Notes: generated by a model from the letters alone, not told the origin. Numbered from the stretch's first letter, positions 15,800 to 19,629 are shown. The stretch: DNA of 45,457 nt from a candidate division WOR-3 bacterium (GCA_026418155.1 JAOABV010000008.1:1-45457), one strand, 5' to 3'. Numbers and translations are program-made.

Positions 15800-16363
15800 A
15801 TGCCGAATGACCCAAAGAATAAAATCGTTCGCAGTAAGATACCAAATAAATTAAAAGCCCGCTATGATTTAATAATTGATTTAATAAAGAACCAAAAATG
15901 TACGGCAATCGAAGTAGCACGAAGGTTAGGCTTGAGTCGTCAAAGAATCGGTCAAATCTTACATAAATTAGGAATTGCGACACCGCGGATGCGAAAAGTA
16001 AAGTTTGGTAATCCGCGTTATCGGTATTGTTCTATTTGTGGTGGTGAAAAATCGACCTATGCCTATATTTGCCGAAAATGCTATGATAAGAAAATCGCGA
16101 GCTTTCCGAAAAGGGTATTCTATTGCCCCGTCTGCGGTAAGCCTAAGTCTTCTAAAACTGGACATCGTTGCTGGCGCTGTTTTTTGAAATCAGTCCCGCG
16201 GGTGACTTTAACCTGTGAGACCTGCGGCAAAAAATTTAAGGTTTTGCTATCAATTGTTAATATTAGAAAACGAATCGGTCGACCAAGAAGATTTTGTTCA
16301 CGCAAATGTTTTATGGAATGGTGGAAAAGTCCCAATAAAAAGCAAACTTTAACTACAAAATAA
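15800..16363 (+). CDS. Helix-turn-helix protein with three zinc ribbons
   Basis: Residues 34-59 (CTAIEVARRLGLSRQRIGQILHKLGI) form a helix-turn-helix of the sigma-70 region 4 / MarR-like kind. Six cysteine pairs follow: C77/C80 with C91/C94, C109/C112 with C124/C127, and C139/C142 with C166/C170. This is consistent with three treble-clef or ribbon zinc sites in a row. The protein (187 residues) is basic throughout, so nucleic acid binding is likely. I do not recognise a named family. The stop TAA overlaps the ispG start by one base (TAATG), so the two are translationally coupled; whether it regulates isoprenoid synthesis is unknown. Confidence 0.75.
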   Translation: MPNDPKNKIVRSKIPNKLKARYDLIIDLIKNQKCTAIEVARRLGLSRQRIGQILHKLGIATPRMRKVKFGNPRYRYCSICGGEKSTYAYICRKCYDKKIASFPKRVFYCPVCGKPKSSKTGHRCWRCFLKSVPRVTLTCETCGKKFKVLLSIVNIRKRIGRPRRFCSRKCFMEWWKSPNKKQTLTTK

Positions 16364-17475: not shown

Positions 17476-17503
17476 TTGACAATTATATGCATTAAGTTAG
17501 AAT
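17476..17503 (+). promoter_or_regulatory. Sigma70-like promoter of the methyltransferase / glycosylase island
   Basis: TTGACA (17476-17481), 16-base spacer, TAGAAT (17498-17503). Transcription would start about 20 bases before the methyltransferase ATG. The island therefore has its own promoter separate from ispG. Confidence 0.65.
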
Positions 17504-17528
17504 ACAAACAGCAACAAAAAATAATTAT

Positions 17529-18464
17529 ATGAGATATTTAGAAGTAAATAGAATTTATAATATGGACTGCCGAGAAGGGATGCGCTATATAAAACCAGGT
17601 AGCATTGATTTAATAATTACCGACCCGCCATTTGCCATTGAATTTGAGGCGAAAAAATCAAATTATCATCGTTTACAATCACGAGTTTTAGAAGGCTATA
17701 ACGAAATACCGAAATCTCAATATTTAGATTTTACAATCCAATGGATGACAGAAGCTTACAAAGTTCTCAAAGAATCAGGAAGTATGTATCTATTCTCGGG
17801 ATGGAATAATCTTAAAGATATTTTAATAGCGATTGAACAAGTAAAATTTATTACAATCAACCATATTATTTGGAAATATCAATTTGGTGTGGTTACAAAA
17901 AGGAGATTTGTCACATCCCATTATCATTGTCTTTATGTATGTAAAAATGATAAAAAGCGAAAGTTTTTCCCCTATGCTCGATATGATAAGACAGCGAAAG
18001 ACAGAGAGGGTCGAAGCTTACATTATAGGGATAAAGAAGATGTTTGGTACATTAAACGAGAATATTGGAATGGCGATAAAAAAACGCCGACAAAACTTCC
18101 TTTCGAACTGATAAGAAAGATCTTGATGTATTCAAGCGAAGAAGGGGATGTTATCTTAGACCCATTTTTAGGTTCAGGACAAGTAGCAATAGTAAGTAAA
18201 ATGATGAATAGAAAATTCATTGGATTTGAAATCGTGAAAGAATATTACGATTTTGCTAAAGAGCGATTAGAAAAAAATATCTACCGAATTAAGGACACAG
18301 AACAATTAAAGAAATTTGCGCCACTCGATATGTTTGAATCTGAATTAGAAGATAAAGTTCCTATAATTATGACTTTTGATGTGCGGGAAAAAAGAGGAGA
18401 ATATGGATTTAAACAGAATACAAATTCTAATCGAAAGTTTAGCAAAAATAGGCCGAGAAAGTAG
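17529..18464 (+). CDS. Beta-class DNA methyltransferase (probably N6-adenine)
   Basis: The catalytic motif IV is TDPPF (residues 31-35) and precedes the AdoMet motif I, DPFLGSGQVA (211-220). The motif order IV then I defines the beta class (HinfI, CcrM, PabI-type enzymes). DPPF/DPPY is usual for N6-adenine methylation; N4-cytosine enzymes normally have SPP(Y/W). The target recognition region lies between (about 90-190, basic, with WKYQFGVVTKRRF and KTPTKLPFELIRKI). Motif X-like FIGFEIVKEYYDFAKERL follows motif I. Length 311 is right for an orphan or type II enzyme. There is no ribosome site before ATG 17529. The 3' end overlaps the next gene by 62 bases, so the two products are expected to work together. 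Confidence 0.88.
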   Translation: MRYLEVNRIYNMDCREGMRYIKPGSIDLIITDPPFAIEFEAKKSNYHRLQSRVLEGYNEIPKSQYLDFTIQWMTEAYKVLKESGSMYLFSGWNNLKDILIAIEQVKFITINHIIWKYQFGVVTKRRFVTSHYHCLYVCKNDKKRKFFPYARYDKTAKDREGRSLHYRDKEDVWYIKREYWNGDKKTPTKLPFELIRKILMYSSEEGDVILDPFLGSGQVAIVSKMMNRKFIGFEIVKEYYDFAKERLEKNIYRIKDTEQLKKFAPLDMFESELEDKVPIIMTFDVREKRGEYGFKQNTNSNRKFSKNRPRK

Positions 18465-19629
18465 AGAAGCACCTTCATTATATAATATTGAACCATTTAG
18501 ACATTTTTACTTTCAGGATGGGAGATTAAATGTCAGTGGACTTGATGATTTTGACGGTAAATTCTCAAGACGTGAAATATTGGTGAGGTATCTTCTCCTA
18601 AAGGCAGTTTTAGACCAAGGTCCTGATATGGTTGGTGTTAATGAATTATTAAGCCAAGTGATTTCATCGCTTTACAGAAGAGAAATCAGAATATTTCACA
18701 GACCGATAGATTTTTTCCAGGAACTGGGAATTACAATTGACCAAATTTTAGAAAAACATAATTCAGTAAAAGCAATAAGAGCGAATTTATGGGCTAAAAG
18801 CCAGAATACGAGACCAACCAAATATAATCTCTTTTTTGCCCAGTCTTCCAGAGGGATAGTTCCAATTAAACAAGTTTTAGATTATAGTATTCACCGATGG
18901 GGTGTTCCTCTTTGTATTCCTTTACTTTTAGAAAACGACTTACAAAAAGAGGGTAAGGAATCGAAACAACCACTAATTGATTATTTAGAATCATATGCTT
19001 CGGCGGAAATAATGGCTCAGGGACTAAAAGACCATTATCGATATGGCTTGGGTAGCGCAATCGGTGATAAAGCCTGCCATCTATTTGCAAAAATGTATGT
19101 GAGTGTTTTTAATCTTGTAAAACACAAAATAAATGATACAGGATGGACAGATATATCATATGAGACGCCATTTGACAGTAATGCTGGAAGAGTTTTGTTT
19201 AGAACTGGTTTTTTATTAGAATTTGCTAATCTTGAAGATTATAAGAAATGGAATGTTATTCAGAAGAGAATTGGGAAAGAAGGTATGCCTTATTATATTA
19301 GAGTGACAAATATCAGAGGGAAAAAAACTCAAAAAATTAAGCCGGAAAGCGAACTTTTTACATATTACAAAGATATTGTTAATAATTATCTAAAGATTGG
19401 TATGTCACCAAGAGCTGCAGAAATACAAAGAATGCCCACCCTAATTTTATATATTCTGAAGAAAAAAGGCTACCATTATTCGATCGCTGATTTTGATGAC
19501 GGACTTATGAAAATTGGAACAGAATATTGCAAAAATAATACTTCGCCCAAATGTCAAAATTGTCCGATTAAACAGCTATGCTTTGCGTTTAATAAAGATA
19601 AAAGTCTAATCAAAGAATATTGGACATAA
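18403..19629 (+). CDS. Putative HhH-GPD DNA glycosylase/AP lyase with Fe-S loop, paired with methyltransferase
   Basis: The protein (408 residues) is not a standard annotated family, but its landmarks fit the HhH-GPD superfamily. EILVRYLLLKAVLDQGPD (about 58-75) resembles the LLxxxLSxQttD helix of endonuclease III. AIGDKACHLF (219-228) resembles the hairpin VGRKTA and places K223 as the Schiff-base lysine. FDSNAGRVLFRTG (257-269) places D258 as the catalytic aspartate, as in (V/L)DxNxxRVLxR. The K-to-D distance of 35 is close to that of archaeal AGOG rather than Nth. Near the end C376-x7-C384-x2-C387-x5-C393 matches the Nth/MutY Fe-S loop (x6-x2-x5) with one extra residue. ATG 18403 follows GAGGAG closely; TTG 18376 or ATG 18379 are alternatives. 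It could excise a base at the site protected by the partner enzyme, or repair lesions. Confidence 0.65.
   Translation: MDLNRIQILIESLAKIGRESREAPSLYNIEPFRHFYFQDGRLNVSGLDDFDGKFSRREILVRYLLLKAVLDQGPDMVGVNELLSQVISSLYRREIRIFHRPIDFFQELGITIDQILEKHNSVKAIRANLWAKSQNTRPTKYNLFFAQSSRGIVPIKQVLDYSIHRWGVPLCIPLLLENDLQKEGKESKQPLIDYLESYASAEIMAQGLKDHYRYGLGSAIGDKACHLFAKMYVSVFNLVKHKINDTGWTDISYETPFDSNAGRVLFRTGFLLEFANLEDYKKWNVIQKRIGKEGMPYYIRVTNIRGKKTQKIKPESELFTYYKDIVNNYLKIGMSPRAAEIQRMPTLILYILKKKGYHYSIADFDDGLMKIGTEYCKNNTSPKCQNCPIKQLCFAFNKDKSLIKEYWT

Follow-up and report, generated by a model that had tools for sequence, protein, structure and literature searches.

Nucleotides 17476-19629 of the window (the whole stretch of DNA analysed, 45,457 nucleotides, corresponding to contig C8 in the 1.74 Mb genome of a candidate division WOR-3 bacterium) carry a DNA methyltransferase gene and, overlapping its end, the gene for a protein that we call glycosylase-like. 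The pairing of the two genes is conserved, the catalytic-type residues of the second protein are invariant, and its place beside the same methyltransferase is taken elsewhere by other partners. We consider the pair a probable Type II-like restriction-modification system, compact in layout, whose restricting enzyme would be an HhH-GPD glycosylase/lyase. A base would be excised at a site shared by the two proteins, methylation would inhibit this excision and the strand would be cleaved. The HhH-GPD fold is supported, but not proven, by sequence profiles and a predicted structure.

Organization and conservation of the gene pair

The features of the locus, in coordinates of the window, are the following.

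17476-17503, + strand: sigma-70-like promoter match TTGACA-16-TAGAAT, 5' of the gene pair (11/12 match; a lead only)
17529-18464, + strand: beta-class N6A/N4C DNA methyltransferase (M), 311 aa, from Pfam, PADLOC and PDB matches
17622-17633, + strand: motif IV of M, DPPF, residues 32-35 (P33-P34 invariant across 15 partner methyltransferases)
18159-18179, + strand: motif I of M, DPFLGSG, residues 211-217 (D211, P212, G215 and G217 invariant across the 15 partner methyltransferases)
18403-19629, + strand: predicted divergent HhH-GPD/Fe-S glycosylase-like protein in the putative R (restriction) position, 408 aa, from its homologues, a MutY C-terminal match and a structural model
19036-19080, + strand: region of the putative HhH hairpin YRYGLGSAIGDKACH with the candidate Schiff-base Lys K223 (codon 19069-19071), invariant
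19165-19203, + strand: GPD-type segment TPFDSNAGRVLFR, matched by an HhH-GPD profile, with the candidate catalytic Asp D258 (codon 19174-19176) and N260
19528-19581, + strand: predicted [4Fe-4S] cluster loop C376-x7-C384-x2-C387-x5-C393, four Cys invariant

An earlier sequence-only reading of this DNA had described a beta-class methyltransferase with both motifs, overlapping a 408-residue protein by 62 bases, and it was right on the coordinates, the motifs and the overlap (18403 to 18464). M matches the Pfam family N6_N4_Mtase (PF01555, E=1.8e-43), the Type II MTase model MTase_II of PADLOC (E=2.4e-68) and CcrM in the PDB (E=1.2e-26). By sequence it is a beta-class amino-methyltransferase of the N6-adenine or N4-cytosine type; as to the target base, its best matches mix N6A enzymes (CcrM, DpnA) with N4C enzymes. 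The promoter proposed for the pair is present, but it carries no weight as evidence, with 7 promoter-like sites in the surrounding AT-rich stretch versus 11.3 in shuffles. The operon contains no ordinary restriction nuclease, as had been noticed, and is flanked by ispG upstream and by an unrelated opposite-strand gene downstream (names read from translations). Between murA and ispG, positions 15800-16363 encode a protein of 187 residues that contains a helix-turn-helix and several cysteine pairs resembling zinc ribbons.

Genome searches led to the identification of 15 intact homologues of the glycosylase-like protein, the window's included, the others being 53-62% identical to it. Their hosts are WOR-3, Aminicenantes and relatives, a Nitrospirae bin, DPANN/Aenigmarchaeota, Thaumarchaeota/Nitrososphaeria and Methanocaldococcaceae. 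The distribution is patchy: homologues occur in 4 of 147 genomes of the window's own phylum and in 1 of 246 and 2 of 247 genomes of two other phyla. The conserved neighbourhood with a methyltransferase that the pairing hypothesis called for was found, a beta-class enzyme adjoining the gene at all 15 intact loci. The two genes are co-directional at 14 of these, overlapping by at most 62 nt or separated by at most 16 nt, and divergent at locus L012. No separate restriction nuclease lies beside the pair at the loci read. Its neighbours are housekeeping genes that vary between genomes, such as ileS/trm1 (L042), EF-2 (L009) and nth with argG (L011). By analogy, this patchy spread among varying housekeeping neighbours is the behaviour of solitary mobile restriction-modification cassettes. 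Viral, plasmid and phage collections contained no homologue of the glycosylase-like protein except for a 39-residue match to the Fe-S end in one phage record.

Motifs and predicted fold of the glycosylase-like protein

The GDK with K223, the FDSNAGRVLFR with D258 and the four-Cys loop, which had been picked out as HhH-GPD landmarks, are all present and are more than chance resemblances. The sequence-only reading had staked its case on the conservation of K223 and D258, and both, together with all four Fe-S Cys, are invariant in an alignment of the 15 homologues. The notable database matches of the window's protein are C-terminal only, to the end of MutY (E=3.8e-6) and to the EndoIII Fe-S loop. 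Across the family the mutY C-terminus model is matched by 15/15 members, EndIII_4Fe-2S by 12/15 and the Pfam HhH-GPD model PF00730 by 0/15. When the family was compared by hhalign with a home-made alignment of MutY, MIG and Nth it scored E=1.9e-5, a significance that comes mainly from the Fe-S end. With this end excluded, segment 255-284 around D258 is the best HhH-GPD profile match of the protein, equalled by 2 of 200 column shuffles; FD258SNAGRVLFR here faces LDGNVKRVLAR of MutY, and the pattern D-x-N-x2-R-V-L-x-R is common to it and E. coli MutY. One hhalign path, of low posterior, sets IGDK (K223) on VGRK of Nth/MutY. The LLxxxLxQxxD-like helix (Q72), also among the proposed landmarks, does align in register with the Nth/MutY helix, but not significantly (27 of 200 shuffles score as high), and we rejected it as independent HhH-GPD evidence. 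The position of the MutY catalytic Glu (E37) is apparently Ala68 in a low-confidence alignment, so that Lys chemistry would be favoured.

The protein departs from Nth and MutY in its spacing. K223 and D258 are 35 residues apart, versus the usual 18-20. Two insertions enlarge it, one of about 70 residues ahead of the hairpin and one of about 65 following the Asp: Q72 to K223 spans 151 residues (79 in Nth) and D258 to C376 spans 118 (54 in MutY). A first AlphaFold run on 12 sequences gave a pLDDT of 48, at which a fold search is meaningless, and was replaced by a second run on a 20-row alignment led by a Methanocaldococcaceae homologue, which gave a model of moderate quality (pLDDT 71.5, pTM 0.73). 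In a Foldseek search of this model against the PDB, EndoIII-3, MutY (three chains) and NTHL1 account for 5 of the 42 listed matches, all with E>1; the best of the HhH-GPD matches, 4uob, has E=1.1, prob 0.41 and TMt 0.47 (TM at most 0.47). These families make up about 40 of the 177,635 distinct PDB sequences, and treating them as no more than three independent families still leaves a chance of about 1e-6 or less for such an enrichment. A viral structure library gave no match to the model. The check that had been proposed, by profile and by predicted structure, points on both counts to HhH-GPD/Fe-S glycosylases, with no single structural match significant, and the protein is very probably a highly divergent member of this group carrying large insertions. 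A plain housekeeping copy of Nth or MutY was rejected, the protein being too divergent and always linked to a methyltransferase. A PabI homologue was likewise rejected, no PabI/HALFPIPE match having been found by sequence or model search.

Exchange and loss of the methyltransferase partner

Within the window's phylum, an M of the window's kind (E<=1e-45) occurs in 14 of 147 genomes, and the loci other than the window's are without the HhH gene. Clade-1 methyltransferases 54-76% identical to the window's M pair instead with proteins of two other families, R129 and R138. The R129 family (205-210 aa) follows M at L129:873-1505, L130:872-1492, L131:244-861 and L132:2232-2852, with broken copies at L133 and L128. 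The R138 family (216 aa) adjoins M at L138 and is fused to its C-terminus in two genomes, giving the single-chain proteins L135:781-2271 and L136:781-2277. Neither family has a match in Pfam, NCBIfam, PADLOC or the PDB. Both display PD-(D/E)XK-like motifs when read by eye, FDG-x5-WDFKAH in R138 and YDxxI...FSxK in R129; R138 is a putative PD-(D/E)XK nuclease and R129 is probably an undescribed restriction enzyme. Window-type methyltransferases of this range of identity therefore serve at least three unrelated partners.

In a maximum-likelihood tree of M, the enzymes partnered by HhH, R129 and R138 proteins are intermingled, the partner having changed 10 times, and a single clade of HhH-partnered M is rejected (p=5e-45). 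The placement of the long-branch rows L012/L015 and of the phage rows is uncertain, and the intermingling does not need them. The M of L046, which has an HhH partner, groups with the R138 fusions L135/L136 (support 95/86). Reciprocally, HhH proteins that are still 53-62% identical are partnered by M from groups with only 25-40% identity to the window's M, ranging from DPPF to TSPPY types. Restriction enzymes and protecting methyltransferases exchange partners mutually when they share a site, and this mutual exchange would place the glycosylase-like protein in the restriction (R) slot. That the partner of M can be exchanged is what one expects if it is a restriction enzyme; calling its place the R slot draws on analogy and on the R129 and R138 motifs read by eye.

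A separate arrangement was observed at L139:641-1866, where a truncated M of the same clade has as neighbours a fragment of an R138 protein and a nuclease of the PLD type (PF13091, E=3.9e-13). This suggests a further partner turnover.

M is also found without the HhH gene, whereas an intact HhH gene was never seen without M (15 intact loci). Five phage contigs (L068, L069, L070, L071 and L072) carry an orphan M that is 51-73% identical to the window's, which fits a role in protecting the phages from systems of this group. In the group that contains Methanocaldococcaceae, M abuts trm1 at L143 and L145, at precisely the place occupied by the HhH gene in L042, whose M is almost identical. At L014:1203-3130 an IS607-like element (TnpB-like and MerR/serine-resolvase-like ORFs) splits the glycosylase-like gene, and M is open over the part that the contig covers; at L015 the glycosylase-like gene is frameshifted and M is open. 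Decay of R is also known for PabI systems (PMC10273834).

Proposed mechanism, alternatives and known systems

In the mechanism that we propose, M marks the host copies of a short sequence by methylating an amino group. The glycosylase-like protein would probably bind the same sequence when it is unmethylated, the large insertions between the conserved helices probably providing the sequence recognition. A base would be flipped out and excised through D258 and K223, and the strand would be broken at the abasic site by K223 or by a host AP endonuclease. A Lys and Asp pair is used for excision plus beta-elimination by the bifunctional members Nth, OGG1 and AGOG. Avoided 4-mers were compared in samples of seven genomes, the G000 sample being L160-L179 and the G338 sample L180-L199. 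AGCT alone among the 4-mers shows clear depletion in G000 as well as G338 (observed/expected 0.22 and 0.29) relative to the comparison genomes G094 and G316 (0.91 and 0.77). Depletion in other carriers is inconsistent, G111 equalling its genus mate G110, G148 being near normal and the small G320 sample (L042) being AGCT-rich, so that AGCT is a lead only for the recognition site.

None of the three outcomes that the sequence-only reading had named as refuting it (an unrelated predicted fold, K223/D258 not conserved, homologues never beside methyltransferases) was observed. It had offered both restriction and repair of damage linked to methylation. Repair in the manner of MIG.Mth or Vsr would have the glycosylase remove lesions or mismatches at the methylated site (for example deaminated N4mC or N6mA, or off-target alkylation) and not act as a restriction enzyme. 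The nearest known relatives are indeed repair enzymes, there is the MutY/MIG C-terminal similarity, and MIG-type T/G mismatch glycosylases are likewise Fe-S HhH-GPD proteins encoded beside a DNA methyltransferase (PMC2714593). MIG proteins, however, are about 220-260 aa long and match MutY over most of their length, whereas the window's family is about 405 aa and highly divergent, with two insertions of about 70 residues that would be unusual in a lesion scanner. The three MIG-like loci that we fetched (L152-L154) all have a C5-cytosine methyltransferase, and L152 a separate PLD-type restriction endonuclease beside it, while in the window's family all partners are of the N6_N4 type with no endonuclease. 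We favour restriction over lesion repair because of this difference and because the same M clade takes two other, unrelated partner families in the same slot; many genomes, moreover, keep M without the glycosylase-like gene. Repair is therefore an unlikely explanation. The L152 genes (L152:732-3651), for a PLD restriction endonuclease, a C5 methyltransferase and a MIG-like glycosylase, lie in a row on the Caldicellulosiruptor plasmid pCALKR01 and make a convenient control for the repair explanation.

It is also improbable that the protein restricts without being a glycosylase, having retained the HhH/Fe-S scaffold for binding DNA while cleavage is hydrolytic or depends on another factor. The evidence for the R slot is independent of chemistry, that for the fold is partial, and the very large insertions could house another active site; yet no nuclease domain was found in the protein with Pfam, NCBIfam, PADLOC or the PDB, and the glycosylase/lyase residues K223 and D258 are among the invariant ones. 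Least of all do we expect a regulatory or orphan pair, with M serving the host and its neighbour regulating methylation, for example as a ROS1/Demeter-like, demethylase-type glycosylase that takes out the methylated base, or as a type IV-like enzyme directed at methylated DNA. In favour of such a pair, ROS1 and EndoIII have the Fe-S HhH-GPD architecture in common, ROS1 is a weak PDB match, and the orphan M of phages shows M by itself to be tolerated. Against it, a glycosylase that attacked the host's own sites next to a constitutive M in one operon would damage its own genome, and the patchy, horizontally spread distribution with partner swapping fits restriction better.

Restriction by base excision is described for the PabI family (R.PabI, R.CcoLI and HpPabI, of the HALFPIPE fold). 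In its two-gene systems R removes a base where the site lacks methylation, and lyase action breaks the strand; these systems are patchy in hyperthermophilic archaea and bacteria and their R is often decayed (PMC10273834, PMC4357717). The window's pair resembles them in its proposed two-gene logic and in its patchy distribution, but PabI enzymes have the HALFPIPE fold and other catalytic residues, whereas the window's protein is of the HhH-GPD/Fe-S type and occurs with several methyltransferase groups. We found no report of an HhH-GPD restriction enzyme in the open-licence literature, where PabI is the sole base-excision restriction family with a methyltransferase partner, MIG is treated as repair, and Brig1 and Brig3 as defence glycosylases of the uracil-DNA-glycosylase superfamily; a 2023 review covers PabI-type enzymes only, with no mention of HhH proteins. 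Base-excision restriction itself being known, what would most likely be new, judging from sequence, is a different, repair-derived fold. We lean, with some reserve, towards the view that such restriction has a second evolutionary origin, in the HhH-GPD repair fold. An Fe-S glycosylase/AP-lyase would have become sequence-specific and sensitive to methylation, and would be swapped freely with other restriction partners that sit next to the same N6A/N4C methyltransferases in bacteria and archaea. If so, immunity by base removal would exist in a second, fold-independent form, and immunity by damage could be recruited from ordinary repair enzymes. Sequence specificity would, as far as we know, be a new property for the HhH-GPD superfamily, and a glycosylase possessing it would be a useful tool. 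How a lesion scanner turns site-specific and methylation-sensitive would become a testable question, with exchangeable partners available beside closely related methyltransferases.

Three further comparisons can be made. With MutY and endonuclease III the protein shares the C-terminal Fe-S loop and its preceding helix and the D-x-N-x2-R-V-L-x-R pattern of MutY, and on the low-posterior hhalign path its K223 falls at the position of the Nth nucleophile; it differs from them by an extra N-terminus, in addition to the two large insertions, the long Lys-Asp spacing and the missing PF00730 match. The archaeal 8-oxoG glycosylase AGOG is also a non-canonical HhH protein with a long Lys-Asp spacing (K140-D172, 32 residues, against 35 here) and bifunctional Lys chemistry (PMC9638937). 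AGOG differs in being all-helical, and the Pfam and PDB searches gave no AGOG match to the glycosylase-like protein. To our knowledge AGOG has no C-terminal Fe-S loop and no link to a methyltransferase. Brig1 and Brig3 are, like the enzyme proposed here, DNA glycosylases serving phage defence, but they belong to the uracil-DNA-glycosylase superfamily, excise phage-specific modified bases and are described with no mention of a methyltransferase partner (PMC11078745, PMC13160076).

At one of the loci of the pair (L011:6599-7222) a genuine endonuclease III gene, nth, lies directly upstream of M and overlaps it, an arrangement that may be due to chance or may possibly serve AP-site processing.
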